Shown here one piece after another: positions 1,271 through 21,392 of a DNA stretch of 64,000 nt. The stretch covers positions 1,798,001 to 1,862,000 of the forward strand of contig NC_060023.1 of the NCBI RefSeq assembly GCF_021134715.1. Reading direction: 5' to 3'. The position numbers and the translations under genes were made by a program. The DNA is from Daphnia pulex. Taxonomy: Eukaryota > Arthropoda > Branchiopoda > Diplostraca > Daphniidae. The notes beneath the pieces are model-generated. The model saw nothing but the letters and a program-made list of their open reading frames with translations, was not told the origin of the DNA and did no database searches. Positions within the stretch are counted from its first letter, which is position 1; each line of letters starts with the position of its first letter.

Positions 1271-2970
1271 ATGTTTCTTCGCATTCGTCGTCGATCGAGC
1301 TTTTTGTCCCTGATAGTCAGTTTCATTTTTGTCTGTTGTCTCATTTCTCTTGTCAATCTATCACTGAGCCAATCGGGAATCAAATGGGATTTATTTCAAA
1401 CGTAAGCCAAAACGCTGTCCATTTTGTTTGTAGATTTATTGTTATACTTGAAATTCTAATACGCACCAAAATGATGTTATTTTAGATTTGAACAAACCAA
1501 CGACATTGAATTTACTGATGATTTCGACAACGTGACTGGTGCCGATAAATATATCGTCCCCAATATCATCCATTTCATCCGCTTCAAAACATTTGAATTA
1601 AACTTTATCGATTACGTCGTGCTGAAAGCGGCGATGCGCAACCACAAACCAGACAAGTTCTACATCCACACAAATGTACTAGAGGTTAAATATGAAGGAA
1701 AGTACTGGGACTTGGTGCGGAAGGACAGGGATTTGTGGTCTCGCATTGAAGTTTTGTATCTGGAAGCTCCAACGGAAATTTTCGGCCAAAAACTCAACGA
1801 AGGCTGGCGCTTTTACCACGGCGGAGACATCGGACGCATCCGCGTTTTGATGCAATACGGAGGCATCTACTTGGATAACGATTGCTTTGTCATCCGTTCA
1901 CTGGACAAGTACCGCAACTTTGAATGCGCCATCAATTGGGATGAAAATCAATTCATCGGTTCTCAAACCATTATTGCACACAAGAACGCCCGTTTTCTGG
2001 CCCTCTGGCTGGATTCTTACAGGCACTATCGTTCGGAGAAATGGTAATAATTTTTTTTTTTTCGTTAGTCGTATTGATATTATGGTGGCTCAATTTAACA
2101 GGTACTATAATGCTGGCGAGCGACCCACGGTTGAAATCCTTTATCGTCACCCGCAACTCGTTCACCGTGTCAAAGGCGATTTTGGAATCATCACAGACGT
2201 TTCTTTAAATCTCTATCGCAATACAAGCAAACCGTTTGAGTGGCGCAGTTTAGATTCCATACACTTGCTCGTAAATCATCGCTTCTATCGTAAGAATACT
2301 ATTTTGAATGAAATTATTATTATTAGACTAATTTTGTTATAAATTTTACGGATGAACTTTAGTCGATAAAAATTACAACAAGACACCCACTTTCAACGAG
2401 AGTAACATCCAGACCTACCAGTATCCATTTGGGGAAATGGCTCGCGAAGTTCTTGACATGAAACCCATCACCCTTTCTGAATCACCATCAGCCCACCAGC
2501 ACCCTCCACAGTTAGTAATTGATTTAACAGATTGGACTGAAGGCGAAAGTGATTCGTTTGCATTGAACGAAACTAAAATCGCCAACACCAGCACCATTGA
2601 ACCAACCACCAACGATCCTTATACCATGCACGTCAATGAGATGAATCAACAGTTGCTCGACTTTTTGATGAACCAACTACGACCTTACGGAATTGTGGAC
2701 CCTGACTCAATTACCAGTACTACAACCATTCCACCGAGCACAAGCACTTTTCTTCCAAATGCTGCCGAGGTGCTGATGAAGAACCTCATTAGCAACGGAA
2801 CGGATACAGATGAAATCATCAATGCACAGCAGATGCAATTATTCCGTGATTATGTAATGCAACAACTTATGCCTTTGGGAATTGTGGGCTCTAGCGAAAA
2901 ACCAATAACCAGTAGTACGACCGTGACACAAGTACCACTACAACAGCTAGTGTCACAAAATCCAATTTAA
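1271..2970 (+). CDS. DXD-motif glycosyltransferase (GT32-like, Gly_transf_sug type), type II membrane protein
   Basis: Four exons fit GT-AG rules and phase: 1271-1401, 1486-2043, 2102-2289 and 2363-2970, giving 494 aa. The N-terminus has a short basic stretch and then a hydrophobic anchor (residues about 12-33), as in Golgi type II enzymes. The catalytic region has YIVPNIIHFIRF, then GGDIGRIRVLMQYGGIYLDN with the D-N-D sugar-nucleotide/metal motif, and NAGE further on. This is the pattern of the DXD sugar-transferase superfamily; donor and acceptor are unknown. The gene at 19594-20797 is a paralogue and supports every join, including the YQYPFGEMAREVL block at the start of the last exon. Unlike that paralogue, this protein carries a long Ser/Thr/Pro-rich tail with an internal repeat (see findings). 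The chosen ATG is the one just before the anchor. Confidence 0.85.
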
Positions 2971-4534
2971 TGAACTTCAATTTGCCTCAGAATTTAGACG
3001 TGAAAACTCTGTTGTCGATATTCCACGCACTCGAAAAAAACAAAGAAAATTCAAATGTTATTTCCGCTTAAGATATATGTTATTACCGTACAAAATACAT
3101 TGCAATCAGAACGTCTTGACTTAACATCCAGATTTCATATGATATTGTTACCGGGCTTATTTACTTGATGAACTCGCAATAATACGTGCAGGGATTATAG
3201 CAATAACAAACCACTCAACAAAAAAAATTAATATTAGCATTTTCCTGAGATCAAAAAAGACCTTCAACTTCAGACAATACTTTAGACGGTCATCGTTCAA
3301 GAATCCAGGGGGGGGGGGGGGTCACCGCTGGGATAACAACACCGCATCGTGAATAAAATAAATAAACGAAAAAAAAGAAATAATAAATTTTCGATGTTTT
3401 CATCGTCGAAGATGTCTGCACATCTTGGCACTGCAATGCGCTCGACAACTTCGCTGTTGACTAGTATATAGAATCTATTATTATAGGGGACCCATCCTAA
3501 AGTTAATTACCACCCATAAGCGGTGGTAATTAACTGTTACAAACATGTGTATCAATTCATCAGCATCTAATTACAAGACCGTCGTTTGAAAAGCCCAAAG
3601 ACTTTTGATTCGACAGAAAAGATTTTAGTATTACGTATTTGAATCAATCGAGTTTGTATATGGCTTGATTGTGCTGGTAGAACCGTAAATGGGCTTGACT
3701 GATTGACAGACCGTAAATGGTCCGACAACTGCAACACAACTAATATCATGTCGAGACAAATATGTTGCTGATGCAATCGGATACAATATAGAAGTCAGTT
3801 AATAGTAACTGCGTTGTGTCTTTGTATAGAAATAACAAAACAATAGTTTTCACTCCCGCGTTCGTGAACAGTAGCGCGAACTAGACGCCCTTTTAAAATA
3901 TTCGTGAATATGACCTTTTTATTGAAGCAAAGAAAGTTTTATTGTTCGATATATACAGATAGCTACAATTCAGTGAGAAATTAATGTAAGGCAATTACTG
4001 CTAATGCATCAAATCACATAATCTTACATTCAGCATTTGATTTTAAAAAATCACGAAGTAGCCAATTTAAACAAGAATACCGATGGAACACCATACACCA
4101 ATACTGAAACATTTCGAGAACTATTAGTTTGCGTACAGGTTAGAGTCTAACCCAGCCACTGCCCGCAGCCAACTACGTGTTCGACTGTTGAACTCGCGAA
4201 GGATATTTGGTTCCGCCCTTGGAGGACTAGCCTGTGTTATACTTGTGTTACCCATTTACCCTTGAACAACTTGGCTTTAACACGTATAACAGAATTCATA
4301 GTCTTTCACACGCCAACATCTGAAGTTGGTTGGCACCTTTGCTGACGCCTTTGCAAAACGTAAAGAAATGTCGCTTTTTGCAAACAGTTAAATAACAGTA
4401 TCGATGAAAAAACGCTGGTGGCACCGAGACGAAGATTTTACTCTGTGGTGTGTCAATCAAAATTTTAGTATTAAATGAAAGTCCATATCTTTTTGAATGA
4501 CTCCGCCATTTGCGTATTAAACAAACATGCCAAA
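2971..4534. other. Intergenic; 3' flanks of two convergent genes
   Basis: This stretch separates the plus-strand gene ending at 2970 from the minus-strand gene ending at 4535. It contains AATAAA-type signals around 3353-3365, a poly-G run at about 3309-3320 and a perfect hairpin (3501-3535). Open frames here have no recognisable protein features. Confidence 0.5.
3501..3535. repeat. Perfect 14-bp hairpin
   Basis: AGTTAATTACCACC at 3501-3514 is the exact reverse complement of 3522-3535, with a 7-nt loop. It lies in the intergenic region downstream of the first gene. It could be a small foldback element or a structured 3' end; nothing decides between these. Confidence 0.7.
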
Positions 4535-5913
4535 TCAACAATAATTCCACTCGGATGTGGCGTTTACTGGGCGGCATTCGACCGGACACGGAGACGTAAG
4601 GGCCTCCGCTGGATCATCTCGCCCGCCGATGAAAAGGCCGTCCTTACTTCTTGGCGTCGGGTACGGCTTGGTGAATGGGAAATTTCCGCAGCAGTAACTG
4701 TCATGAGACACCTAATTGTCCCGCCCAAAGATAAATTTTAGATTTGACAAAAGTTCCATTTTTAAAATCCTTGGTTCCCCAGTGATAAAAATGTCTTACC
4801 ATGTTTGACTGCGCAAAAGGCCAAATGTAGTCCGTCAGCAGAGCTTGGTCGTAGCCGTAGTTGTGATTATGGGTCAATTTAAAAATCTCCTGAAACACAC
4901 CGGCAATGTGTGCACGATCCTGGCTCAGTTTGACTCCCCACATACCTAATAATACAAAATTGGTTGAAGTCTAAAATACTCCTCATTTGTACACCACAAC
5001 TATCGGCTAAATTTGACTATAGTAAATGCCTTTGAAACCAATTACCCGCTAGAACATGGACGCAGTGATACGGATGGTCTCTCATAATGTGGAAAATCTT
5101 GTCACTGGCCAACCACTCACGAACGGCATCTTCTTCACGGGATATGATTCGACTGTCCGTGTCTCTAGACATGACCGTGTCCACCATATCATCGAGCATA
5201 GTTAACTAAACAGATAAAATCTAAACATTAATTCAACAGCAAAGCCAGCAGCGGATATCAGAAACATGCTTTTTTAAACAATCTAAGCGGACGTAACAAA
5301 AAGATAAAACTGCTGAATAGTTTATTTATAGTAATAATAGAATGTTACCCAACGCCAGGTCGCCGCACTTGGATTCCTTTCCAAATTTCGATTTTCCAGC
5401 ACTTGGGTGACGTTGCAAATATCGACGTGACTTCCGATGTCCAAATGGCGGTTGAACGTTTCCCAACTTGCCTTGTCGTCGGATTGCAGATTGAGATAGA
5501 TCCTTACAGTCCACCCTGAAAAAATTAATTTATAATTTCTCACCTTTATTAGAATCAATCGAATGATGCTCATGTTGATTAATACCTGGATAAATCGAGG
5601 GGACCGACTTGAGAGTCTCTCCAAATGGAATGACGTATTTTTTAACGTGATCCTCCCGTGAGAAGTTGTCGTAAAGGGAATAGGTGACGATCTTTTGATT
5701 GGGACCTCTTCGGTCAGCGGCGTGACTGCAAGTTGATTTGAATTGACCTAGCAGAAGCTCCTCTTGTTGAAAGATAGGCGCGTGATTAACGAGAATTGTC
5801 ACAAGGATAACAAACGAGATGAGACCAATTGTCAGTTTACGCTCGAGTTTACGCAAATGACACCGGTGTTGCAAAATGGCCATGTCGCTGTCGCCAAGTG
5901 AACGTGTGATCAC
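4535..5913 (-). CDS. Type II membrane protein with RDTDS motif, putative glycosyltransferase (paralogue of 8362-9577)
   Basis: Five exons on the minus strand: 5913-5586, 5515-5349, 5205-5046, 4945-4800 and 4711-4535, giving 325 aa with consistent phases. The N-terminus has a hydrophobic anchor (LTIGLISFVILVTILV). Next come DRRGPNQ and a YSLYD motif, YPGWTVRIYLN, VMSRDTDSRI with an acidic D-T-D group, AVREWL, MRDHPYHC and MWGVK. The protein ends with HDSYCCGNFP and a Cys-rich tail ending in YC. The order resembles sugar-nucleotide transferases in which D-x-D binds the metal and nucleotide sugar, but I cannot name the family or substrate. Its neighbours are glycosyltransferases. The first ATG is used; a second Met 10 codons on is equally possible. 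Confidence 0.75.
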
Positions 5914-6362
5914 AAATTCGCCCTGCTACTAAACGACGAATTGTGATCCGTGTGAGCAACTTGTCTATTGTGAACGCGTCTAATCAGGTACGGCCGGACG
6001 AGCAGCAGAATGGTCCTCGAGATATTTAGTTATCAAATTCACACCATTTACAGCATAGGTGTGAAGAAAAAGTCCTCTGTTTCATGGGTGGTTTATTACC
6101 TAGCAATGCGATAAAGACATAATTCATCACGGTGTGCATCACGGCTGTGGTTATCAGTAGTAATGACCCCCCCCCCCCACCTGTGACCTGCGTCCGTTCA
6201 TATAAATATATAGAACCTTGATGTATACAGCCCAAAGTTTCACAATGTGTCATGTTCTACTAGAGATAGATAATTTCTCTTTTGAAAACGTTATTTATTG
6301 CCCAGATGACGCCACTGAAACATTTTTAAAATTCTGGGTTGAACAAATAAAATTTAAATATA

Positions 6363-7358
6363 TCACATTTTGAATTTGGAATTGAAATAGGCGATTTCGG
6401 CGCACGAGTATTTGTCCGGCGCGGCCGGCACGAATCCCTTGCTGTTCAAATTGCTCTTGTAATCGAACGGAATCATTCCGTGGCGGCTTTCCAACGAGCG
6501 CAAGAGGCCAATCCGCTGGCGGATGTCGTCGACGCTATCGTCGCCATCAAAGTGAACCTCCATGGCCAGCTGCTTCACTCTGCCCAGTATGCCCGAGTCG
6601 ATCATTTGCGGCAGGACAGTCCACTCGTCACCTTCGATGTCGATCTTGACGTAATCGATTTCCCGCTCTCCGTGAATCGATTTAAATCTATTGTAAAAAG
6701 ATTCCAAGGTGAGAACCTTCCAGGCGACTTCCGGCCGTTTCTTGTCCAGGTAAATGTAACCGTCTCGGTTCCACAGGCCCATCTGGTAAAAATGAATTCG
6801 AGCGCTGCGATTGTGATCGACTTCCTCCATGGATCTTTTTTTAAAATTTTTAAAAATTCCAAATCAATTCGAATCTGAATTGAATTAAAATCAACGAAAT
6901 TCATTATCATTATTTTACGGATCGAAAGAGTAGACGTTGCATCCGAGTTTAGCCATGTCGTCGTCAAACGACCATTCGTTGTCTATTCCGAACGAGTAGA
7001 CGAGACAATTGTTGATGGCCGGCCCGAGTCCCTGGTCTAGGCAGACGGACTTTTGCCCGTCTTTGTACCTGTCGCTATTGTTGATGACTACGCCGCCAAA
7101 CTCGTAGAAGACGCGACAGGCCGATCGGTTTGTCATCCGACTCGAATCCAAAAAGGCCAGCAACTGCGACGCGGATGACCAAGAGTCCAGCATCATTGCG
7201 TCATCATCCGCGCTGTTGCCCCGTTTTGGGCCGTTTTCAGAGCCGGAATTGGATAATTTCAACAGGGTCAAGCTCAAGGACAGAACGGCCAGACACAGGA
7301 GGAACCGGGCGATGGTTTTGACTGAATGCTGATGGATGTTGGCAACACGGAAAAACAT
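6363..7358 (-). CDS. METTL24: METTL24-like methyltransferase (FkbM-like family), secretory-pathway anchored
   Basis: Two exons, 7358-6919 and 6834-6363, join in frame to give 303 aa. The N-terminus has a signal-anchor (FLLCLAVLSLSLTLL). The body shows the METTL24 pattern: CRVFYEFGGVV, DGQKSVCLDQG, CLVYSFGIDNEWSFDD, GCNVYSFDP, and YVKIDIEGDEW, which corresponds to the motif of FkbM-type S-adenosylmethionine-dependent methyltransferases. The exon join falls inside FDP|SM, as the family sequence requires. A more upstream ATG (7418) exists but would put an unlikely 20-residue leader before the anchor. METTL24 proteins are poorly characterised; methylation of a glycan or secreted protein is inferred from the neighbours only. 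Confidence 0.85.
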
Positions 7359-8361
7359 TTTGCGTTGTACAAATAGTTTCGTTTGGAATTCAAATGCGGC
7401 AGAGACGGCGGGAAACACGGAACCAACTTTCTCGCTTCAAATCTTTTGTCAACTGACATATTTTTCGTCAACTCTGTTGTTGTTAGACTTGAGACTGATG
7501 AATTATTGGAGCCTGTCATCCGTCACAGCGTGTTGTTGCAACAACTCGGCTCGACTCCGCCGCCGCCGGGATGTATCTTCTTATTTATTTTTTTACGACA
7601 CCCAAAAACATCTCAAACTTTACATGAATAAATTAAAAATTCAGAGGCTCCTCATAAACAATTCTCCGGCGCTATAGGGTTCGAGTTGCGCGTGCGATGG
7701 CCATCTGAGAAAAAGAAGAAAGACTTTATGACGAGTTCGTGAGCGGCACAGTCCGTGACAAGCGGTCAGCATCTCTCTTTGAATGCTAAAAGCCACATGA
7801 ATATTATTATTTGAATCCGGCCAACTGCTGATCCTTTCGAGATTGTACGACTTCTTAAAAAATTACACAACAACAACAACAACTGGGTGTAATAAAAATG
7901 TTTCTTTTCTTTTTCTCTCCCAGACGAGTGGAATGACCCCGGAAAGTTTTACTAAGATGATGTACAAAGGGTTTCGTCTACCCCGTGTCAAGTTTAACGG
8001 CGAAAAAAATTTACGACAGGGTCGGGAGCTATAGCGGCTCATCCGTATAATAATAGGCCCTCTCGGCGGGATATGCGCACGCTAGCTCATTTGAATTCTT
8101 ACAATAGGGCGGCGACTGCAGGTATATATCCTTAGATCTTGAACCCTTTCGATGAAACGTTGAACTCACTCGACCAAACCCATTTTTGATGATATCCACC
8201 TACCCATATAAGAAAGCGCATAGTTTACAACACAAAAGTTCAGGGTTCGATTCACGCAACGGCCGGAATGCGTAATTATGGATTATGCAAATCCACTCTC
8301 CTCTAATTGATTAGCTTGTCTATTATTCAGTTTGGAAGAAGTATCAACATGAACAAACATA
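7359..8361. other. Intergenic; no gene seen
   Basis: This lies between two minus-strand genes: the upstream side of the METTL24-like gene and the 3' side of the next gene. No open frame has a recognisable domain. A GGTTCGATTC string near 8242 resembles a tRNA B-box, but no tRNA fold surrounds it. Confidence 0.5.
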
Positions 8362-9577
8362 TTAACATTCGTTCCAATCTGGGTGTCGTTGGGGTCGGCA
8401 TTTTTCCGGGCACATTCCGGGCGACGGAAGACTTTGGTTGGTGTAAACCGATCCGACAAACGAGGAAGAATCTTGTCGCCTGGTCGGAAAAGGTAATAGC
8501 GAAGAAGACGGGAATGTTTCACAGCAATAACTATCGTGAATCACCTGAGTTGAATAATAATCAAATGAGACACTATCAATTATATGGGACACAAATTGAT
8601 CGGCGTTGTCATGTTTAAATATACAAACCGAGTCTTTTACAGCTAAAGGCCAAAGGTAAAATTTCAGTAGCAATTGATCGACGCCGTGGAAGGATGGCAT
8701 TGGCCTTTTGAACATTTTCTCGACGACCCGGCCAATGTCACGACGCCTTTGATGGACTTTGGCCCCCCACAGTCCTATGTTCGTTTTTATTTAACCTTGA
8801 CTGTTTCAATGTTTAAACGAAAAAATTTTATGTTTAAAAAATTGAAATCCGAGGGTTCAACTACCTCCGAGAATTTCCGTGTTGCAATGCCACGGATGAT
8901 CTCGCATGGCGTGGAAAGTGGCGTCGCTGGCGGACAGCCATTGGCGAACGGCGTCGATTTCTCGACGGATCAACTCCGAGTCCGTGTCTCTCGACATGAA
9001 CCGATCCACCAGAGGATCCAGCAGCGGGAGAAAGCGCCAGGTCATGGGAAATACCGTCGGCCGGATGTTGCGCAACCGGAGGATAGGATCGACGTCGCAA
9101 AAGTCGATCTTGGCGGAATTGTTCAACATTTCTTTTAATTCTCTTCCGTCCTCCGTCGAAAAATTGTGATAAATCCTGACGATCCAATCTGAAATCATTG
9201 ATGAACGTCTTTGATTAATTAAAATAAGAAGTTGATTTAATTATAACCCCCAAATTACCTGGATAAATGCGGCTGATATTTGCGATCAAGGCTCTCAGCG
9301 GGCGGATGTATCTGTCCGAAACGGCCGGATCGGTCAAGTCGCCGTAAAGTGAAAATGAGACGACACTCTGATTGGGTCCCCTGCGATCCGCTTCGCAACT
9401 GCAAGTTGAAATCGACGATAAACATAAACTGTTGTTCAATTCACGAATAATAATAATTTCTCCATTTTTGAATGATTTCGTGAATTCCATCACGAACGCT
9501 GCGACAAGAAATAAATAAATAACGAGCTTGATGAAGTTAACTAGACGGTAAAAGCTGTACGTCTGTCTCATGGTCAT
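8362..9577 (-). CDS. Type II membrane protein with RDTDS motif, putative glycosyltransferase (paralogue of 4535-5913)
   Basis: Four exons, 9577-9259, 9188-8865, 8774-8641 and 8544-8362, give 319 aa. Features in order: N-terminal anchor (LVIYLFLVAAFVM), CEADRRGPNQSVVSFSLYGD, YPDWIVRIYHNF, FMSRDTDSELIRREIDAVRQWL, MRDHPWHC, LWGAKVHQ, HDSYCCETFP, PFPTRRQD, FVGSVY and a Cys-rich end (CPEKCRP, HPDWNEC). It lacks one intron that its paralogue has. The last intron (8545-8640) is 96 nt, a multiple of three, and has no stop, so retaining it would add 32 residues; comparison with the paralogue shows it is an intron. Role as a transferase is inferred from the D-T-D motif, topology and neighbourhood. Confidence 0.75.
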
Positions 9578-9822
9578 AAACTGTCAAGAATGAAATGAAT
9601 GATGGAACAACCCGAGTTGATTGATGTGCCACTCAAATTCTTCTATCATTTTTTAAAATTATTATACCTAGTCACGTAATCTATTTGAACGTAATTATTT
9701 ACCTGTCCAGAAGATGGCGTCTGTGATCGGTGTAGACTTTTGAACACAAATTCAGACCCGCCTATTTTCAAAAATGGGAGGGGCTCAATCATTCTGAAAG
9801 ATGAACGACCGCGGGAGCCGAC

Positions 9823-11073
9823 GTGAATGTCAATGATTTCGATCATCACTTCCAGATGACAAATATAGCCAGACAGAAGCGGACAATAGCAATGTCATTG
9901 CTAACGACTCGTCAACTCGTCGTCGTCAACCGCTTGGATTTGGTTTACAAAAACAAGCGGCGATTGGCTAACATTTTTCGTACATCCGTCCTGGCAGTTG
10001 GCATTTTCACTTTGGTAATTTATCAATCACTCCGCAAACTGGAAATTGCCGGAACTCGAAATTGTCAGTATAGGGACGTTAAATCAATTTTAATTTGGAA
10101 CGCTCCGGAACGAGCGGAAGTAGTGGCCTTTGTCAATTCCGCTCAGGACGGCCGGAATGTTTTTAATTCCTGTCCGATCACCGAGTGCCGGATCGATTTG
10201 GAAGCTTCCGGAAAACTCGACACTTACGACGCCATCGTCGTCAATTTCAACGATCAATTCCGGCTGGTCGACTTGCCGGAATTCCACCGGAAACCTCATC
10301 AGCGGATGGTCTTCTTCACTCAAGAGCCTCCGCCGGCTTTGAAAGGCTACGATTTCCGTCGGTATGCAAATTACTTTAACTGGACCATGACATACCGGAC
10401 GGATTCCGACATTCCTCTCACTTACGGCCGGCTTACCAAGCGAGAAAAAACATTAACAAACACAGAAACGACCAGCAATTCCGGCAACAAGACCAAACTA
10501 GTGGCCTGGATGGCCACTCAATGCTTGACGGATGGCCGGAGGGAGTCGTACGTCAAGGAATTAAAACGCCACATCGATATCGACGTGTACGGCCTTTGCG
10601 GAAGACTTTCATGCGCCCGGCATCCGGTGGATGTCTCCCATCCGCGCTGCTACGACAAACTGGAATCCACCTACAAGTTTTACCTGTCGTTGGAGAATTC
10701 CATCTGCCGGGACTACGTCACCGAAAAGTTTTTCAAAATCATCCAGCGTCGCATCGTGCCCGTCGTTTACGGCGGTGCGGATTACGAGCGGATCGCACCC
10801 GCCGGCTCGTACATCGACGCCCGTCGTTACCATCCGGCTCAACTGGCCGACTACCTGCGGCGGCTGGATGCCAATGAAACTTTGTACCAGGAATTCTTCC
10901 GCTGGAAGAAAGACTACGCCGTCGAAGCCGGAGTCACATCCATGGCCCATCGTGGGTTCTGCCATCTTTGCAGTCGATTACATCACGATCAAACGGTGAA
11001 AACTTGCGTCGATTTGACTAGCCACTGGCAACATCCCAGCGACGAGTGTCAATCACCTTTGGAGATGAACTAA
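9823..11073 (+). CDS. Alpha-1,3-fucosyltransferase (GT10), intronless
   Basis: One exon encodes 416 aa, the usual length of invertebrate alpha-1,3-fucosyltransferases. These enzymes move fucose from GDP-fucose to GlcNAc of N- or O-glycans in the Golgi. Visible features are a type II anchor (TSVLAVGIFTLVIYQSL), ILIWNAPER at the start of the stem-distal domain, RMVFFTQEPP, NYFNWTMTYRTDSDI, and the donor-binding block YKFYLSLENSICRDYVTEKF followed by RRIVPVVYGG. The C-terminus has CHLC and further Cys, as in the family. In-frame Met residues at 9823, 9856 and 9892 are all possible starts. The copies at 28054-29350 and 52983-54279 are divergent relatives with introns. Confidence 0.93.
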   Translation: MNVNDFDHHFQMTNIARQKRTIAMSLLTTRQLVVVNRLDLVYKNKRRLANIFRTSVLAVGIFTLVIYQSLRKLEIAGTRNCQYRDVKSILIWNAPERAEVVAFVNSAQDGRNVFNSCPITECRIDLEASGKLDTYDAIVVNFNDQFRLVDLPEFHRKPHQRMVFFTQEPPPALKGYDFRRYANYFNWTMTYRTDSDIPLTYGRLTKREKTLTNTETTSNSGNKTKLVAWMATQCLTDGRRESYVKELKRHIDIDVYGLCGRLSCARHPVDVSHPRCYDKLESTYKFYLSLENSICRDYVTEKFFKIIQRRIVPVVYGGADYERIAPAGSYIDARRYHPAQLADYLRRLDANETLYQEFFRWKKDYAVEAGVTSMAHRGFCHLCSRLHHDQTVKTCVDLTSHWQHPSDECQSPLEMN

Positions 11074-11327
11074 TATAATTAATTTTTAGTCTTTACTAAA
11101 CCCTGATTCAAACTTGTTCAACTGCCAAGAAAAAATAAAATTCCTTTTCAATTCTTTCAGTCATTTTATGACCAGCCATAAATAATTTGACTTGGGTATA
11201 ATAAAAATGAAACACGGAAATGTCATTTGAGACTCAATGGTACACCCATTAGCCGTTTATTTCTCCTTAAATACACAATAGAAATAGAAAAAAGAATAAG
11301 GATAAAAGATAACTAGTCAAGTTGTCA

Positions 11328-12038
11328 TTAACAATTGTTGAACGGCAGCGGCGAAGGGAAGCAGCCGTTGATGGTGATGGTGTTGGTGGTGGCAACGGTG
11401 GTGGAAGTCGAGGTGACCGGCTGGGTGACGGTCACTGTGGTCGAGTAGAGGACCGTAATGCCGAAAACCTGGGCCAGACCGACGCCAAAGAACGGATTGG
11501 CCACTCGGGCCTTGCAGATGCTTTCCATGTCGCGGATTTGAACTTCGGCCATGCCGGCCGTGTTCTCAATGGATGGCTGGACTTCAGCCGCTGCCTCAGC
11601 CTGGACATCCAGCGATCTCATCTCCGGAAGAGCGGTGACCATCAACCTATAGAATTTCCAGTGTTACATTGATGATAGAAATACAAATAAAATAAATGAA
11701 AATGATTTTGATTACTCGACGGGGGCCGATGGATTGATCTCATCTTCGTCTTCTTCTTCCGCTTCCAGGAAGATTGGTTCTTCCATGACGTTGCGGCGCC
11801 GGCGGCAGTTGGGAATGCCGACGACCGAGACGGCGCAGCTGGTCGTGATGCCCTTAGTGACGACCGTGGTGGAGCTGACGGTGACCGTCGACGTGATGGT
11901 CTTTGGCGTGACGAGGAAGCGCAGAACGTTGGGAATTTGGCGGTTGGCCGGTTCTTCAGACTGTCCACTGGAAACCAGTACGGAAGCGGAGGCCAATACG
12001 GCGCAAGACAGGAGAAGGACTAGAACGGACGACTGCAT
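11328..12038 (-). CDS. Small secreted Thr/Ser-rich protein with RRRR site (family member 1)
   Basis: Two exons, 12038-11716 and 11646-11328, give 213 aa. A signal peptide (SSVLVLLLSCAVLASAS) starts the protein. A Thr/Ser/Val-rich stretch ends in CAVSVVGIPNCRRRRN; RRRR looks like a furin-type processing site. An acidic stretch follows, then RVANPFFGVG, a second Thr/Ser/Val-rich stretch, and GCFPSPLPFNNC at the C-terminus. The same plan is seen at 13063-13860 and 14474-15327, with the linker intron at the same place and phase 2. I do not recognise the family. Processing into two chains, O-glycosylation and a structural or extracellular role are inference. Confidence 0.8.
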
Positions 12039-12100
12039 CTTGTGTGTTAGATTCTCGATTAGTTCTGAGCTGACAATTGACTTGTTAACACCTTGTGTCT

Positions 12101-12108
12101 TTATATAC
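12101..12108 (-). promoter_or_regulatory. TATA box
   Basis: On the minus strand GGGTATATAA lies about 65 bp upstream of the ATG at 12038. A TCAG initiator-like site lies about 30 bp downstream of it. This is standard core-promoter spacing and supports the chosen start. Confidence 0.6.
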
Positions 12109-12119
12109 CCACGGAAATG

Positions 12120-12960
12120 TGAAGAAATATCAGCGATATCGTTGCGCATACAAATGGACATCAAGTTGACCGTCAAAATTTAATTAATTTTAGACTTTTC
12201 ATCACGCGTCAACTATTGCGACATCACATAGGTTTATTCTCTTCCAACTGCTAGCTGTGTGGCCGTGAGATGCCCTTTCGTCAGACAAGTCACGTTCAAT
12301 TCGCCCGAATGATTCAAATATTAATTAATCAGGATATACCAAATGTCTTTGACCCCTGGATGTCCGTCTGAATGGAAATCAGCCAGCGTCATTAACTTGT
12401 GTGCAATTCAGAATGACCAAATACAAACCTTGACCGTTGGCTTTTTCGCTAACGTCATGCGACTATTCGGCTTCACGTCTGGATATTATGATCAGACATT
12501 GTTGACTAGCAAAGCCCCTGTGGTCAATTTGTAGTCTCTCTATAAATCAAGTGTTTTAATCAATAGATTTCTTAATCAAATGAGAGGCATCCCAGACTCT
12601 ACAACAAAAGTATAGCGCAATAAACATCTGATCGAGGAAACTAGCGAACCCGTACCTAAAAAAACAAAGCATAGACACAATGGGAAGTCGTCATTTGATT
12701 AACAGGCAATTCATAAAATGGTCATTTCAAATTTAAATATTATTTCCAAGCGACAAGATGACGAATTTTGACGGGATATATCGTAATACCCCGCTAGAAT
12801 TCAAGAATAATCTATATATTGAACTAGGGTTATAGACATTCTACAATCACCCAACGGTTCTTTAGAGTAATTTAACCGTAATCAAACCAATGGATGAAAT
12901 GATAACGATTCAAAATTTGAGTTGACCCCCCCAAAACATTTGTCTGATGCAGATGTGGCA
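12120..12960. other. Shared upstream region of two divergent secreted-protein genes
   Basis: The minus-strand gene (ATG 12038) and plus-strand gene (ATG 13063) point away from each other with no coding sequence between. The region is AT-rich. Any shared regulation is inference. Confidence 0.5.
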
Positions 12961-12971
12961 GAGCGTCTACG

Positions 12972-12980
12972 TATATAAAA
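12972..12980 (+). promoter_or_regulatory. TATA box
   Basis: TATATAAAA stands about 90 bp before the ATG at 13063. It puts the transcription start near 13003, which rules out the GTG-initiated reading frame that opens at 13000. Confidence 0.6.
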
Positions 12981-13062
12981 TAGATCAGCCATTTGTTATG
13001 TGCTCAAACGATCTCCGACTGTCCTTAGCTTAAGTGCTGATAAATCCAACAAAAGCAAAGAC

Positions 13063-13860
13063 ATGAAGTGCAATCAATTTAATCACCTGGCGGTTTACCT
13101 GTCAATGATTTCACTAATTCTCGTCATAGTCGATCCGATGGCGGCTCGAGTCGTCATCGACCCCGGAGTCGACGAAGCTGGCAACGGTCTCTACGGCGGA
13201 ATGGTCCAGGGCCGTCAGATCACAGCCCTGCTGACCGTCACGCGGACCGTTTCCTCTGCGACGACGTCGACTTTATCCACGACCAGCCTTTGCGTCAAGC
13301 TGAGCACCAGCGGAAGTCTGACGCCCACCCAGTGCCGCCGCCGCCGCAACTGGAACGGACGCCGAGAAGAAGAACCTTTGCTCTACGTCCTGTTCGACCA
13401 GAACGGCGAAGATGTTGAATTCGTCCAGCCCAGTCGAATCGATCCGTCCAAAGTCTTGAGGTAATTACAAACATTTTCATTTCTCTTTTAACAATTAATT
13501 TAATCAACTATAAAATAATATTTAATTTGGCTCTTATTAAATAGTGTGGAAACGACGGAATTGGCCAAATTCCGTGACGGGATACCAGCATCAACCGGGC
13601 CGGCCATCATCGAATCATCATTAGAAACCGAAGATTCTTCAACGGAGGACAACGGCGTCCGTGTCGCTCAGCCCATTTATTTCAGCGCGCTGGCGTCCAT
13701 CCTGTCCAATATCTTTCCAAGTGCTTTCCAGTCGACGACGACCAGCACGAAAACATCGACCGTTTACGCAGGAGGTACCACTGTCGTCACCGTCTACACT
13801 TCCACCAATTCGTTCACTCTTGTCGGCTCCTGCTATCCGGCTTTCCCTCCGCTTTGTTAG
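13063..13860 (+). CDS. Small secreted Thr/Ser-rich protein with RRRR site (family member 2)
   Basis: Two exons, 13063-13460 and 13545-13860, give 237 aa. The signal peptide is LAVYLSMISLILVIVDP. Then come ARVVIDPGV, a Thr/Ser-rich stretch, a Cys pair ending in TQCRRRRNWNGRREEEP, LLYVLFD and the phase-2 intron after DPSKVL. After it: NGVRVAQPIYFSAL, a second Thr/Ser/Val-rich stretch and LVGSCYPAFPPLC at the end. Start choice follows the TATA box and the signal peptide. Function is unknown; see the family finding. Confidence 0.8.
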
Positions 13861-14403
13861 AAATGATCCATTATTATATTCCCTATTGATATTGATATTT
13901 AATTGTCTCTGAATTTATAAGTTTAGTTTAGACTAATGATTTGTTAGCCCGTTCGCTTATTTTAGTTGGAAATCGTTCGTATTATCCACTTAAATTTAAG
14001 TCGAATTTAGTTGCTAGTTTTTCGTCATTATAACCAATACAAATCTGATTTAAAAAATGTACCGTTCTGGTGGAGTTTATTCAATTTAAAGTAATAATAA
14101 AAAATTCTTATAAGGGCGTGATTTGACAACCCTTCGTCAAAATAAGAAAAAGAGAAATTATGAAACATTTTTCTCGGGGGTTGTATATAAGTGGGCGTTG
14201 ACTTGGGTGTCGTTGACGTCGAGTCATAAAGTTCGTTGCACGATAGTAATATCCATCTGCTGACTAGAGGCTGTTAAGAGACGATATTTTAGTTTTATTA
14301 GACGTTAATACAATTCGCTGGAGGATTGTTGCGGTTATTTTTTGGTCATCCCATTTTTTTTCAGAGTTACGCCGGAAGGTTTTCCATCCGTATTCCGGGC
14401 TTG

Positions 14404-14410
14404 TATAAAT
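14404..14410 (+). promoter_or_regulatory. TATA box
   Basis: TATAAAT stands 64 bp before the ATG at 14474, with an ACAGT initiator-like site about 25 bp downstream. A second TATATAAG string near 14186 is too far upstream to be needed. Confidence 0.55.
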
Positions 14411-14473
14411 AGCAAAGAGTGACATGGATACAGTATCGTCGTCGTCGCCAAGCGCAAAACAGCAGAAATTATC

Positions 14474-15327
14474 ATGCTTCCATCCATCCGTCCATCGTTC
14501 GCCTTGATTGCTGTCGTCTTGCTGGCTTTGTTGGCCGTCGAGATTCCGGCCCGTGTGGTCGAAGATGTCGTCATCGATCCATCGATGGTCTCCGCCATCG
14601 CTGAGCCAATGGTCCGCCAGGCCAGGCAGCAATCGACAGCCACCGTCACCGTCCTCAAAACCGTATGGCGTTCATTTATTGTCATTTTAATTCGCAATTG
14701 AATTTGGAATTATTTGGTGTTTATAGACGACCCTCTCGTCCGTCACGACCACCGTCCTGACCACCAAGAAAATCTGCGGCATCATAGCTTCCGTCTCGGC
14801 TGGCACGGTCAACCCTGGTGGCATTGTCACATTTACCAACGCTCCGGCTGCAGCCTGCAGCCGCCGGAGGCGTCAGTATTGGGACCAGCCCGTCTTTGTA
14901 GCCCTCAAGAACGACGACGACACCAGCTTGCAGTACTTCCGATTGAATCCCACCCAAGTTTTGAAGTAATTATTCAAAATTGAGCGCGGGAAATTCAAAC
15001 TGACCAAAATTTTTTTTTCATAGTTTCGAGCCGACGTTGTTGCCACAATTCCGCAACACCCACAGCCCGAGCGTTCAACTGGTAAAGGAATCATCCTTCA
15101 TTCTTCCGTCGTTCGACAAGCCGTCGGATAACGTCCGCGTGGCCAGCCCACTATTCGGGATCAGCAGTCTCATCTCTTCCATCGTGTCTGGCATTTTGAC
15201 GACGACAACCACCACGACGTCGACCATCACCGCTTATACGTCCACTTCTGTATCCACGTCGTTCACAGGCACCGCCAGCTATTACGTCGTCGGAGCTTGT
15301 TATCCGGCTGGCCTCACCACTTGCTAA
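14474..15327 (+). CDS. Small secreted Thr/Ser-rich protein with RRRR site (family member 3)
   Basis: Three exons, 14474-14662, 14727-14965 and 15024-15327, give 243 aa. The signal peptide is FALIAVVLLALLAVEIPA. ARVVEDVVIDP is shared with member 2. A Thr/Val stretch is followed by a Cys and then ACSRRRRQYW. The phase-2 linker intron lies after NPTQVL, in the same place as in the two siblings; the first intron is extra. The second half has NVRVASPLFGISSL, a very Thr-rich stretch and YYVVGACYPAGLTTC at the end. Cysteines are limited to the ends of each Thr-rich block, which may mean one disulfide per block. Confidence 0.8.
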
Positions 15328-16816
15328 TAGATTTGACCGATAAGCCCGCGCTCTGGTGTCATTGACCGCGGTTCAAGAATTATATCCACGACTCTCACGA
15401 TTAAAATTATGCCATTTTGTGTCGACTATATATTTAAAAATAGAACAAGCCTATAGGCAATTGTTGTAGGTCCCATCAGTTTTTTTGTTTTAGATTATGC
15501 ATACGATCCTTCAATACAAGACCCCTATCGTAATTCAAACTGTCATTTTATTAACTAGAGTGTGTTGTCTTATTTTCTTTTGGTATCCCCTGAGGGGTTT
15601 TATTGTATTTTGTTTAATTTTGATACTGGTAGAGCTCATAGTATGACTTTTAAGAAGAGTTTGATACAAAAATAAACACGATCCATCAAGCGGATGTCGT
15701 GAACGGGAGGCCGAACCGCTTTTTTTTTTGTTAGGATCGGTTTGAGTATCGATTTCTAATATTTGTTTTTACATCGATTCATCAAAAGATAATGTCGTCT
15801 GCTATGTAACTTGTCAGCACTTGTCAGTTGTTGTCACCATTTCGTGTTATCACTTATTACATTTTACGAAATTTGACACGTTAAAATGAGATGAAGTTTT
15901 CGAACAGGTGCAAAACGAAAGGTTTTCGGAAGAGAAGAGTACGGTGACAATTTCAGCAACAGGTGAATTTTTGTTTTTATGCTATTATTTGTTTACTGCT
16001 AAAATGTTTGTACGTCCAACCGACCTAATATCTTATCCATTATCTTTTGAAAATCTCGGAATCTCCCCCCCCCCTTAAACTATTAACGTTAGTGAGAATT
16101 GAAAACCGAGGAAATTGTCTCTGACAAAACACCTGTTTCATCTGATTGGACACAGTTTGAACTTTGTGTATGAACAAGTCCATTAATCCCAGCGTATCTA
16201 AACATTGGGAGGGTTACCTGGGTTCTGTTATGTGGTGGATTGCTTGCAGCCATGGTTTGCAGTTAGATCATTATTTGGGTGGATCAAGTTCGGGAGTGTG
16301 ATATCACTTCAAAAGAGTTCGTTTTGCATTGATCCATTTTGGTAACAACACAATGTGTTTGACGTAATTTCAACAACAAATAATGCCATTTCTAAAAATG
16401 CAACAAAAAACGTGTTTGTTGTTGATTGAGTGTAATTGGCAGACTTTTTTAGGTCATCTAATCAGCCTTCAGCAATATTGACTTCTTTGGTGAAGAAGAA
16501 TGCTATCTAGCGATCAGAAACACAAAGGCAATTCGATTGATTGAATTTAGTTAACTGTAATCATTTTTTTTTATGATCTTATTAGCAATTAGCGAGGCCA
16601 TGAAATTTTCAACTGCATGCAAGTGGCTTCCGGCTAATGCTAAAAGCTAATTTTATTGCGTATTACGATACGATTGTTTTATTTACTTGGCAGCATAAGG
16701 ATATAGGCTGTCGAACCCTTAAATACCCAGGAGCGATGAACCTTGCTCACAAATGTGTGTAGCACAAACTGAAAAACAAAATTCTTTAGTATGAACAGAG
16801 CACTCATCTTTACCTA
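15328..16816. other. Intergenic; no gene seen
   Basis: No coding signal was found. It is AT-rich, with short homopolymer runs (poly-T near 15720, poly-C near 16066). A non-coding 5' exon of the gene starting at 16817 may lie here. Confidence 0.45.
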
Positions 16817-17974
16817 ATGAAGAAACCTGGCGGGTGCATGGCGTTTCCATCACGAATCCATCGGAGGCACATCATCGCCATCTTTTTCCTGTGGTCCTTA
16901 TTGGCAATTTTCTTCCATCATTACAATTCCGGCGGATCGAAGAGGGAAAAAATTCGCAAAGGGGACGGCATGTGTCCCCCAGTTTCCCCACTGTTAAGTA
17001 AATAATGGCCGTTATCTTTAAATTGACTCATAAATATTAAATTTCCATTTTCCAGACGGTTGGACGGACGTTTCCAATTACACCAGGAACGCTTTGAGTT
17101 ATTCCGGACGATCGCCGCTACAAGTTGGCGGGAGTTACCAGCCTGTCGAGTGCCGAACGAATCGCAAACTTGCCGTCGTTGTTCCTTACAGGAACCGGAA
17201 TTCCCAGTTGGATATTTTTCTTCATTACCTACATCCGTTTCTTCAGCGCCAGCAGCTCGACTACACCATCTTCGTCGTAGAACAAACTGGTACAACTTAT
17301 TCTATTTTATTTGAATAAATAGCAAATTTTGAATGTTGAAATTGGTGAATTAAAAATAGGAAAACTAACGAATCCCTTCAATCGGGGTATGCTGATGAAC
17401 ATTGGCTTCACCGAGGCTCTCCGTCTGCGATCGTTTGATTGTTTCGTCTTCCACGACGTGGATTTATTGCCGGAAGACGACCGCAATTCTTACACTTGTC
17501 CGGAAGTCGGAGAACCTCGTCACTTATCCGTCGCCATCAACACATTCGGTTACAGGTGCTAGCCGTCCATTATCTCTGCGGATTATTTTTTGAAAGATTC
17601 TTTCGTGTCTCAGACCTATCGGTCCGAATCATTTTGGCGGAGTTAGTTCACTCACTACGGTCGATTTCGTGGCGGTCAATGGATTTTCCAACAGGTTCTG
17701 GGGTTGGGGTGGCGAGGACGACGATCTTTACGACCGTCTTCGTTCGAAAAATCTGACGGTCCGTCGCCACCGTCCGTTGCGTCAGACGCGCTACACAATG
17801 CTTCCGCACGACACGGCGAAGCCCAATCCCGACCGGAAGAGAATTCTTCAAGAAAATCAATTTAACGTCTCTAGAGCGATGATGGCCGATGGTTTAATTA
17901 CTTTAAAGTACCGGATTCTCAATTTGCAATTCAAATCTCTTAGCACCCACATTTTCGTCGAAATTGAACGATAA
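16817..17974 (+). CDS. Beta-1,4-galactosyltransferase / GalNAc-transferase (GT7)
   Basis: Four exons, 16817-16997, 17056-17289, 17360-17555 and 17614-17974, give 323 aa. The enzyme adds Gal or GalNAc from the UDP-sugar to GlcNAc-ended glycans in the Golgi. In order: type II anchor (IIAIFFLWSLLAIFFHHY), LAVVVPYRNRNSQLDIFLHY, IFVVEQT, PFNRGMLMNIGF, CFVFHDVDLLPEDDRNSYTC with the D-V-D metal site, HFGGVSSLT, the hallmark FWGWGGEDDDLYDR, and a MLPHD-type tail. The 70- and 58-nt introns are placed where the family sequence is continuous. At 323 aa it is a little short in the stem. The Gal-versus-GalNAc preference cannot be read with confidence. Confidence 0.93.
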
Positions 17975-18329
17975 AATTCAATTAATTTAGAATTAAAATG
18001 TCAACACTACCTTTCTAGTTATGGCGACTCGCTGACCATTTTATCGTTCTAATTAAATCTATCAGCCTCTCGTGAATGGATTGCTTCCAAACGGAGGAAT
18101 GTATTAGCACAAACTCGCGATATCACGGCAATTAAACAGTTATTGATCATCTACCCTAAGGATATTGTTTAATTAAAATTTCTGAAATTTCAAAAGATTA
18201 AAAACCGCCACCAGCTCTTTTTTATTCAGATGAACACTCGTCTTGTTATCTCAGTTGTGTAACTATACTGCTCCCCAATCGTGAACGAGACTAGTTCAAA
18301 CTAAGGTCGTTCGTATTCCTTCAAAGTGA

Positions 18330-19385
18330 ATGGAGCTGTTCGCCATTCGTTCTTCCGGTTTCCGCACCCATTTCCGCCCGAAAAAGTTAATCAAAACGAT
18401 GGTGATGTTGTTTTTGTTGGGACTTTTGCTTCTGTTCGCTCTCAACATTTTGTACGACAATCGGTTCGCCATCCCGTGGATGAAGCGGCGATTCCAGATC
18501 GTCCAGTGGACGGAAGAGTCCGACCAGGAGCTCCTGGGACCAAACAATCGGAGGATTTACTTCCACGAAACAAGCGGAAGAAGCCGATTGACTCTGAGGC
18601 AAAGTTGCGCAGTGGAATCGGCGGCCAAAGAGAATCCCGACCGGCCCGTCCAGCTCATCATGCAGACGGACAAGTCGTCCATCAATAGGCGGGGAACTTG
18701 GCTGAATGTTTTGTCCAACTACCCCAACGTGGCCGTCATCCTGATCAAGGAAATGGATTACTTTCGAGACACTCCGCTGGAAGACTGGTACCGCAAAGGC
18801 CAATGGCGACAGAGCCCTCACAAGCTGGAACATTTTGCCGATTACATTCGGATGCTGAGCAGTCTGAAAGGCGGAGGTCTCTACATGGACCTGGATTTCG
18901 TCACCATCAAACAGCTGGACATTGACAACTTTTTGGCCGTCGAGGACGCGGCGGCCAATCACCTTTCCAACGGGATTTTCCACTTTGATCACGGGCACCG
19001 TCTCATCCGCGAGATCGTCGACCAGCTGGCAGCTCGCTACCAGCCGGAAGAATGGAACGCTCACGGTCCGGCTCTCATTTTCTCCATCATGTCGAGGATT
19101 TGCGGATTGAAGACTGGGCAGCCGCTCTCCAACCAATGTCAGGATGTGGCCTTGATGCCTTACAACTTTGTCTATCCGATCCACTGGCCGGATTGGCGAA
19201 TTTACTTCCAGAAAGCCAACCGCAACGTCATGCAGTGGATCAACGGAAGCTACGCGGTTCACGTCTGGAACAAAATGTCGCACTCGGAACCTCTTCTAAT
19301 CAATTCCGATCAAGTTTACGCCACCCTGACCTCCAGACATTGTCCGTTCACGGTCGCCCGAGCTGCGCAATTCGATTCCTCGTAA
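18330..19385 (+). CDS. Alpha-1,4-galactosyltransferase-like (A4GALT family, GT32), intronless
   Basis: One exon encodes 351 aa. An N-terminal anchor (MVMLFLLGLLLLFALNIL) is followed by IYFHETSG, a RQSCAVESAA block, KLEHFADYIRMLSSLKGGGLYMDLDFV with the D-L-D motif, and WNAHGPALIF, all in the order of lactosylceramide 4-alpha-galactosyltransferases. The C-terminal part has VYPIHW and YAVHVWNKMS. In vertebrates the family makes Gb3 or P1 antigens; in insects it makes alpha-1,4-GalNAc on arthro-series glycolipids. Which one applies here is not visible. The dense neighbourhood of Golgi transferases supports a role in glycan or glycolipid assembly. Confidence 0.9.
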   Translation: MELFAIRSSGFRTHFRPKKLIKTMVMLFLLGLLLLFALNILYDNRFAIPWMKRRFQIVQWTEESDQELLGPNNRRIYFHETSGRSRLTLRQSCAVESAAKENPDRPVQLIMQTDKSSINRRGTWLNVLSNYPNVAVILIKEMDYFRDTPLEDWYRKGQWRQSPHKLEHFADYIRMLSSLKGGGLYMDLDFVTIKQLDIDNFLAVEDAAANHLSNGIFHFDHGHRLIREIVDQLAARYQPEEWNAHGPALIFSIMSRICGLKTGQPLSNQCQDVALMPYNFVYPIHWPDWRIYFQKANRNVMQWINGSYAVHVWNKMSHSEPLLINSDQVYATLTSRHCPFTVARAAQFDSS

Positions 19386-19593
19386 TAATATCGTTTTGAA
19401 TTTTGCCGCTTCTTTTCGGTAATAATAATACAAAATGTTGAGAGAAAGAAAGAAACGATCCGTTATTTTTATGACTTACACACTAATGCAAAATGACTTG
19501 AGGGGCTAACGATAGATGAGATATACCCCAACACTGGTGAGGGTTCAGGTTTGAATTAGGTGGCAAAGCTTCGAGGAGAGCGGACGCGAAAAA

Positions 19594-20797
19594 ATGGTTC
19601 TGGTTTACTACTACCACGCCCAGCAACGGTGCCGTTCCGGCAAGTTGCCGCTGTCCATCCGATTGCGGAAGAAGCCGCTGTTTGCCACCATCTTGTTGAC
19701 GTTCGCCCTGTCGGCCGTTTTCCTGTTTAGCTCTTCCGACATTCATCCGCAATCCGTCGAAGATGTCGAAGATGTCGTCGAAATGGATTTCGACGGTTTC
19801 AACAACGAGACGGGCGCTAGCAGTTACATTGTGCCCAATATTATTCATTACGTCCGGTTTAATATGACAGAGTATTCCTTCGTCGACTATCTCTGCTTGC
19901 GGGCGGCTTTCCTCCGCCAGCGACCCGATTTCGTCTACATCCACACCGACGTTCCTCATCCGGGGAACGGAGGCTTCCGGGGGAAATACTGGGACATGAT
20001 CAAGTTGGACAAGAAACTCATGTCGAGTATCCGCTTCTTACGCATTGAATTGGCGTCGGAGATCTTTGGCCAGCCGCTGAGTCGAGACTGGCGGGTCTAT
20101 CACGGGTCGGACATCGCCCGCATCCGCACCATGATGAAATATGGCGGCATCTACCTGGATAATGACGTCCTGGTTCTCCAAAATCTCGACAAGTATCGCC
20201 GGTTTGAGATTTCCATGAACTGGGACGAGGGTGACACTCTCGGTAGTCAGGTAGATTGTAATTATTTTGTTATTATTAGATTTATTAATGCAAGGTGGTT
20301 TTAATTGGAGAGTGGTTATATCGTTTTGTCCAGGTTATTGTCGCCCATAAGAACGCTCGTTTTCTGAGCCGATGGCTGGACTCTTATCATGATTATCGGG
20401 CCGATATTTGGTATTACAACGCGGGTGATCTGCCGGTCAAGGCGATTCTGAATGTTCATCCGGAAATTCTCCATCGAGTCAAAGGTGAATTCGGAGCCGA
20501 TTCCAAAAAGTCGTTGAAACATTTCACCGAAGAAGGCTACGAGGGATGGCGGAAGAATGACGCCATTCACTTGTTAGTGAACCATCTTTATTCCGGTGAG
20601 TTATTACGCTGTGTTAATTACGTAACATACAAAAAGTTGTGACATAATTCGTTGTTAATTTCCTCCTTATAGTGAAACCACAAGATTTTAAGCCGTTAGT
20701 TTTCGATGAAGAAATGATTCAAACGTACAAATTCCCGTTCGGACAAATGGCCAGGGAGGTTTTGGCAGCTTTGAACGAAACGGAATTAACTCTTTGA
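19594..20797 (+). CDS. DXD-motif glycosyltransferase (GT32-like), paralogue of 1271-2970
   Basis: Three exons, 19594-20250, 20334-20595 and 20673-20797, give 347 aa. It has a type II anchor (ATILLTFALSAVFLFSS), YIVPNIIHYVRF, HGSDIARIRTMMKYGGIYLD with D-N-D, VIVAHKNARF, WYYNAGD and the C-terminal block FPFGQMAREVL. It ends shortly after this block and lacks the long tail of its paralogue. The intron before VIVAHKNARF is absent from the paralogue, whereas the intron after NHLYS is shared in position and phase. Donor and acceptor sugars are unknown. Confidence 0.87.
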
Positions 20798-20973
20798 AAT
20801 TATATTTACATTTTTAAAAATTCTGATGCGTATCCTATAATTTATTTACTGAAAAAAAAGGTAATAAATCAAAAGTTACTTCGACATTATTATTATCTCA
20901 ATTATTTCTTAATTTGCTGTGTGACCTTGTTTTTGTATCATGTGAAATGCACAGTGTTGTTGAAAATCACGTG

Positions 20974-21392
20974 TTGTTGAAAATCTACTTCGTTACCTGT
21001 ACACCGGAGAAGTGTTCGGAGAAAACAACCGGCCAATTGAACATGTCGAAAATCTGTTTGCGGCTGCCGACAAGTACGCCATCAAATCCCTGAAAGAAGA
21101 GTGTGAATTCCACCTGTCAAAGAATTTAACTGTTAATAACATAACGCGTTATCTTGTCTTGGCCCATCGTCATAACTCGCCAAAGCTCACCGAGTCGACG
21201 CTGGATTTTATGGCGGAAAATGCGGCCCAAACCGTCTGTTCACGTAAAAAGACATATTGGATGGAGATAATGCAAGGTGATCCAGAACTCGCTTTTCAAG
21301 TTATGGAGCGTCTAGCAGGCAATAAAGAAAGGCGGACAGACAAACCAAACTTGGTGGGTAAGAAAAGGACTCGTCAATCAATGGAGAATTAA
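20974..21392 (+). pseudogene. 5'-truncated BTB/POZ gene copy
   Basis: From about 20976 the frame reads VENLLRYLYTGEVFGENN and on through LFAAADKYAI, closely matching the BTB-BACK part of the gene at 22578-23630. The MATH-like half and the start of the BTB fold are missing, and no upstream ATG supplies them. Downstream sequence (about 21680-21790) also resembles sequence after the intact gene (about 24150-24240), so this looks like one unit of a tandem duplication. A short protein from Met codons inside the copy cannot be excluded. Confidence 0.75.

Follow-up and report, generated by a model that had tools for sequence, protein, structure and literature searches.

A mixed cluster of putative glycan-modifying enzyme genes in Daphnia pulex, its counterparts across the genome and its relation to the Pasteuria-resistance locus

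The stretch analysed here, the window, comprises 64,000 nucleotides of Daphnia pulex (assembly GCF_021134715.1, contig NC_060023.1, hereafter C7, positions 1,798,001-1,862,000), and its positions 1271 to 20797 hold a dense cluster of genes for glycosyltransferases and a methyltransferase. An earlier note on this DNA had described them as a group of unrelated Golgi glycosyltransferases and had suggested a link to the Pasteuria-resistance (PR) locus of Daphnia magna. All the gene types that it named in this interval are present, that is, a GT10, a GT7 and an A4GALT-like gene, two GT32-like genes, two genes of the kind labelled RDTDS, and a methyltransferase, called METTL24-like in the note and recognised here as FkbM-type.

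The cluster begins on the forward strand with GT32-like glycosyltransferase gene a (1271..2970; PF04488, E 3e-7), which has a hydrophobic N-terminal stretch, the motif GGIYLDND and several exons whose joins were partly resolved. On the reverse strand there follow RDTDS gene 1 (4700..5883), the methyltransferase (6363..7358; PF05050, E 7e-6, above the cut-off, at least two exons) and RDTDS gene 2 (8362..9577), the latter traced through its open reading frames (ORFs) and exon joins. RDTDS gene 1 is an unclassified gene of a GT-A-like family, located by a match at C7:1803047 and by alignment, and its approximately four exons were joined except at the first join. All the remaining enzyme genes are on the forward strand. 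The GT10 alpha-fucosyltransferase-like gene (9856..11073; PF00852, E 4e-58; PF17039, E 4e-23) is a single open exon of 405 amino acids from the first Met, and the A4GALT-like alpha-1,4-glycosyltransferase gene (18330..19385; PF04572, E 3e-39; PF04488, E 2e-8) is likewise a single open exon, of 351 amino acids, with the motif YMDLDF. The GT7 beta-1,4-galactosyltransferase-like gene (16817..17974) has about four exons with all joins but one resolved, and its hand-joined exons matched PF13733 (E 6e-46) and PF02709 (E 1e-22). Finally, GT32-like gene b (19594..20642; PF04488, E 2e-8) has at least two exons.

The Pfam assignments of the GT10, GT7, A4GALT-like, GT32-like and methyltransferase genes were all over the curated cut-off, and the acidic motifs are intact: DVD and WGWGGEDDD in the GT7 gene, DLD in the A4GALT-like gene and DND in both GT32-like genes. 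Since the exon joins were resolved in part only, the genes are open across their domains, with their completeness unproven. The description of the transferases as unrelated holds in that several families are mixed, but it goes too far where the A4GALT-like and GT32-like genes are concerned, as these have the Pfam family PF04488 in common; the transferases therefore amount to four sequence families, to which the methyltransferase is added.

In the window's own genome (133,188,837 bases in 13 contigs, of which C2, C8 and C10 are named below), we searched GT10, A4GALT and GT7 through their Pfam families, and RDTDS and the methyltransferase through one window exon each. There were 135 matches for GT10, 34 for Gb3_synth, 30 for the GT7 N-terminal family and 49 for PF04488, together with 29 for RDTDS (with the gene 2 exon) and 39 for the methyltransferase, the query itself included in the last two counts. 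The GT32 set consisted of 16 places compiled by hand, and the PF04488 rows at C10:659679, C8:3368386 and C10:12920494, which had no Gb3_synth partner, were dropped. When the matches of the six families were merged within 2 kb we obtained 213 loci, and 123 of them lay in 24 mixed clusters under a 30-kb linkage rule; treating A4GALT and GT32 as one family gave 120 of 211 loci in 23 mixed clusters. Three of the 24 clusters consist of a methyltransferase and an A4GALT gene, at least one of which is interrupted by stops.

The families lie together again and again along the genome. We counted different-family pairs, with the places copied by hand and same-family places within 25 kb joined beforehand, and compared the counts with 2000 random rotations of each family along its chromosomes, a null that is not matched for gene density. 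The six families formed 85 pairs within 20 kb against a null mean of 6.9 and a maximum of 17, so that none of the 2000 rotations reached the count; in this test the chromosome length was taken as the last match plus 300 kb, whereas the other rotation tests used seven true lengths and guesses for the rest. With A4GALT and GT32 merged there were 77 pairs within 20 kb (null mean 6.2, maximum 19, 0/2000). The excess held at other distances, with 66 pairs against 3.9 at 10 kb and 114 against 15.6 at 50 kb. Regarding the 15 single combinations of families, nine were reached by 0/2000 rotations and three others by 1, 5 and 21/2000.

Among the places searched, no 20-kb stretch other than the window cluster has all six query families; C7:11.42 and C7:0.115 Mb follow with five each. 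This rank is biased because the query families were picked from the window, and the fairer test is the count for the rest of the genome: once the window cluster and the three broken pairs had been removed, and with A4GALT and GT32 merged, 64 pairs remained against a mean of 5.0 and a maximum of 17 (0/2000). The accessible text of one study already describes an expansion of glycosylation genes in Daphnia (PMC12102780), and we found no account of a genome-wide co-clustering of these families in a literature search that left most subscription journals outside.

Host-parasite coevolution has one of its foremost model systems in Daphnia and Pasteuria, for which glycosyltransferase genes are the standing candidate mechanism. 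According to the part of the source available (PMC5340410), the PR/ABC locus of D. magna holds fucosyltransferases, alpha-1,4-glycosyltransferases, a galactosyltransferase and a methyltransferase, and also sestrin and calcipressin. Partial accounts further indicate that the F locus adjoins the ABC supergene and has a WSC-domain protein, VEGF receptor 3 and the cladoceran-specific CS1/CS2 proteins beside its transferases, and that the G locus lies inside that complex. The window resembles this complex, as far as these accounts go, in bringing fucosyl-, alpha-1,4-glycosyl-, galactosyl- and methyltransferase genes together. It differs from it in position. Further marks of the complex are PC-esterase genes, non-homologous haplotypes in which transferases are present or absent according to the clone, and a genotype that decides spore attachment; the window is known from the genes of one genome alone.

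In our genome sestrin matched only at C10:15,662,089-15,665,199 and calcipressin only at C10:15,667,146-15,667,595, 2 kb from sestrin. A mixed cluster begins 41.6 kb past these two genes, with two A4GALT, six GT10 loci, one RDTDS and three methyltransferases in 49 kb, in an order that runs from A4GALT (from 15,709,188) to GT10 (from 15,715,389), RDTDS (15,728,276) and methyltransferase (15,729,574). Thus, the expected place of the PR locus is on C10, at about 15.66-15.76 Mb, and it holds another cluster of the same kind. Because both marker genes are on C10, at 15.66 Mb, and the window is on C7, at 1.80 Mb, we reject orthology between the window and the PR complex. The proposed link to Pasteuria resistance therefore survives in gene content but not in position, and an identity of the two loci has to be given up on the first half of the refutation that the earlier note itself had set, a location in an unrelated chromosome region, the second half being an absence of structural variation among clones.

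The window might instead be the orthologue of another Pasteuria-resistance locus of D. magna, either E on chromosome 5 or D on chromosome 7. The E-locus region is reported, in the accessible part of PMC8042741, with four sugar transferases, and partial accounts of the large structural polymorphism of chromosome 5 mention two private fucosyltransferases on one haplotype, so several sugar transferases are a feature common to that region and the window. However, that polymorphic region is of megabase size. As for the D locus, its table lists spindle-E, a calcyclic-binding-like protein, an SMG7-like protein, a MIT-domain protein and two non-coding RNAs, and the word 'transferase' is absent from the text. 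Furthermore, mixed clusters are so numerous here (24 under the 30-kb rule) that common content alone says little on orthology, and we consider an orthology with E or D very improbable.

In our best explanation, the genes of the window form a mixed cluster for glycan-modifying enzymes of the Golgi type. Clusters of this kind occur across the genome, this one being the most diverse, and it is not the PR-locus orthologue; we give this reading a probability of about 0.78. Several observations count against it. GT32 occurs with GT7, RDTDS or the methyltransferase at chance level, with one pair each (286-390/2000 rotations). The C10 placement is based on two neighbours of the PR locus, sestrin and calcipressin; a search for the PC-esterase family matched nowhere in the genome, and its controls likewise matched nowhere. 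Trypsins, used as a control family, were also found near the clusters within 20 kb, in 12 pairs against 4.8 (15/2000) among the matches listed, although within 10 kb (5 against 2.8, 323/2000) and 50 kb (18 against 10.8, 108/2000), again among the matches listed, the surplus was smaller; for this control 150 of 544 candidates were scored and the pairs were taken from the rows listed among 184 matches. Given this trypsin excess and a null without gene-density matching, part of the effect may come from gene-rich, duplication-prone regions.

Taken to its end, this would mean that ordinary gene-rich and duplication-prone regions collect young families and that the glycosyltransferases are not special. 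The large palindrome and the tandem GT10 copies beside the window cluster fit such a view, as does the mild trypsin excess. Nevertheless, the excess is about 12-fold for the query families against about 2.5-fold for the trypsins (the latter among the matches listed), and we regard this explanation as unlikely. A somewhat better case can be made for block duplication, in which the genes stand together simply because parts of an ancestral cluster were copied. Among the fetched loci (42 GT10, 24 A4GALT, 20 methyltransferase, 11 RDTDS, 7 GT7 and 6 GT32, to which all the relatedness comparisons refer), the between-cluster distances of the methyltransferase agree with those of GT7 (rho 0.86, p 0.007, 5 clusters) and with those of A4GALT (rho 0.53, p 0.005, 9 clusters). 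A methyltransferase-A4GALT pair is found at four places in one orientation, 639-697 bases apart, three of them with stops, and the RDTDS-methyltransferase pair of the window matches the C10 pair in order, strands and spacing (1319 and 1298 bases). But the agreement of A4GALT and methyltransferase is largely due to two broken C2 pairs, without which it drops to rho 0.32 (p 0.14), the GT10 distances showed no agreement with those of any of four families (rho -0.10 to 0.12), and the remaining four of the ten uncorrected distance tests gave p 0.08 to 0.63.

The nearest relatives of the window genes speak against block copying too, being scattered over seven places outside the window with identities of 49-81%, some of them partial. 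The A4GALT-like gene is closest to a locus at C7:11.71 Mb (49%), the GT10 gene to C7:1.12 (61%), GT32-like gene a to C7:0.57 (78%), the methyltransferase to C10:0.65 (51% over part of its length), the GT7 gene to C7:11.77 (68% over two exon pieces) and the RDTDS genes to C7:7.77 and C8:5.88 (81% and 67%, both over parts); GT32-like gene b is closest to gene a (56%). In the look-alike neighbour pairs the members are not nearest relatives by sequence, and therefore the cassette-like adjacent pairs, RDTDS-methyltransferase in the window and on C10 and A4GALT-GT32 in the window and at C7:0.57 Mb, are suggestive only. We thus see block duplication as a possible but rather doubtful explanation of the togetherness. 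The nearest-relative and distance comparison led us to reject recent copying of a complete cluster as the sole cause, and the window's history is best read as a duplication of pieces long ago, with turnover since then. The families may then stay together through selection for linked combinations or through mere persistence in duplication-prone regions.

The methyltransferase-A4GALT pairs with stops were located at C2:9.101, C2:10.006 and C8:4.477 Mb, and their order and spacing are those of the pair at C7:11.404 Mb. These three broken pairs are scattered copies of a two-gene block.

How a mixed cluster could work can be outlined from the families involved. In our reading such clusters were built up as genes were duplicated, shuffled and lost over a long time. 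Each gene product would be a membrane-anchored Golgi enzyme, by which the secreted glycans of the epithelium and cuticle receive fucose, galactose, a further sugar or a methyl group. Linkage could let combinations of outer sugars pass on together, and the gain or loss of a single enzyme might alter the surface met by attaching microbes. Any effect of the window genes on microbial attachment or parasite resistance is proposed by analogy only. Metabolic gene clusters and supergenes are similar in that different enzymes of one process are physically linked; in contrast, the window cluster is known from gene linkage alone, not from a common product or co-expression.

A bolder version, which we offer tentatively and think unlikely, is that some twenty dispersed glycan cassettes, each a physical linkage of different Golgi transferase families, lie at unlinked places because glycan-attaching parasites favour co-inherited combinations of outer sugars; the PR locus would be one of many, and the greatest diversity would be that of the C7 window. 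One of the families included in it is GT-A-like, and its other members came, in these searches, almost exclusively from viral contigs. If mixed clusters are found throughout the genome of another species than D. magna, candidates for resistance loci could be read from the genome, and each cluster would be a prediction as to haplotype variation and spore attachment. A question for comparative genomics is also raised, namely what keeps different families of sugar transferases side by side, given that block copying accounts for only part of the pattern.

Regarding this GT-A-like family, RDTDS, the two window proteins matched no Pfam family, and against the PDB they gave no significant match by sequence and none by profile. 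A Daphnia paralogue (C7:0.12 Mb), used in place of the window proteins, matched no NCBIfam model and gave one weak PHROG match (E 0.005), and three viral or bacterial members had no PHROG match. The searches for relatives covered the Daphnia genome itself, viral contigs, bacterial and archaeal genomes and phage records. With an alignment of five Daphnia proteins as the query, relatives turned up in 287 of the 330 stretches of viral contigs taken as candidates, and in only 2 of 55 from bacterial and archaeal genomes. A viral member matched 6 of 50,697 phage records, which form three pairs: Synechococcus phage S-SRM01, Acinetobacter phage MD-2021a and an uncultured 735-kb phage.

The viral rows analysed further were the best 80 of the 287, of which 20 entered the structure alignment together with one bacterial row, and 32 the tree together with two. 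Daphnia, viral and bacterial rows have in common the motifs W-R, RDxDS, RE, AV, W and FHxMRDHPxH, and the Daphnia proteins are homologous to a viral relative, L107, at about 30-35% identity. In a Foldseek comparison with the PDB, the fold predicted for L107 (pLDDT 93.3, pTM 0.91) best matched GT-A enzymes, among them glycogenin and the capsid glycosyltransferase of PBCV-1 (E about 1e-6, TM about 0.5). The likeness to glycogenin and the PBCV-1 enzyme thus consists in the GT-A fold predicted for the viral relative, whereas the identity is 9-16% (in the 50 rows shown) and no significant Pfam or PDB sequence match exists. The RDTDS proteins probably form a family of GT-A glycosyltransferases for which Pfam has no entry, on the strength of the fold modelled for the viral relative and, for the Daphnia members, of homology. 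Since they are homologous to a viral-contig family with one member predicted to fold as GT-A, it is reasonable to count them as transferases. A transfer of RDTDS genes between viruses and Daphnia did not emerge from the tree of 39 rows; the five Daphnia rows formed a single long-stemmed group with support 100/100, and there was no other animal in the tree. A glycosyltransferase-like family without a Pfam entry, common to an animal and many viral contigs, is thereby added.

Amid the transferases there are also three small Ser/Thr-rich predicted secreted proteins, which look alike by eye and were outside the list of the earlier note. The one at 11328..12038 is on the reverse strand, was identified through its ORFs and has a PF24949 match below the cut-off; those at 13063..13860 and 14474..15327 are on the forward strand and were traced by ORFs, sequence and, respectively, an exon join and exon joins. 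They are possible glycan acceptors. A single 133-amino-acid query searched against the genome found only itself; as it missed its two look-alike neighbours, its failure to match elsewhere in the genome carries little weight.

Beyond the cluster, a large palindrome occupies 24961-57372, with arms of about 12 kb that are 99% complementary in three blocks and 7.9 kb between them. Each arm carries a copy of a split-type GT10 gene, so the two extra fucosyltransferases expected there were confirmed by Pfam and by the inverted repeat. The left copy is on the reverse strand (28057..29045; PF17039, E 5e-26; PF00852, E 7e-27), and its mirror copy on the forward strand (53288..54279) is supported by ORFs, by the inverted repeat and by GT10 matches at C7:1851681 and 1851920. 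Five further GT10 loci, at least one with stops and none in the list of the earlier note, lie just upstream of the window at C7:1.7845-1.7934 Mb, and the one at C7:1.7845 Mb has 94% identity with the copies in the palindrome arms. The left arm also carries an open frame of 1111 amino acids with MIF4G and KH domains, mirrored by frames in the right arm. Finally, BTB/POZ genes of the SPOP type are found after the cluster, from 21 kb (20964-23630), and at 38045-38671, two of them having a 182-base stretch in common at 93%, and a gene like that of the vitelline membrane outer layer protein I lies at 58439-58927 (PF03762, E 3e-51).

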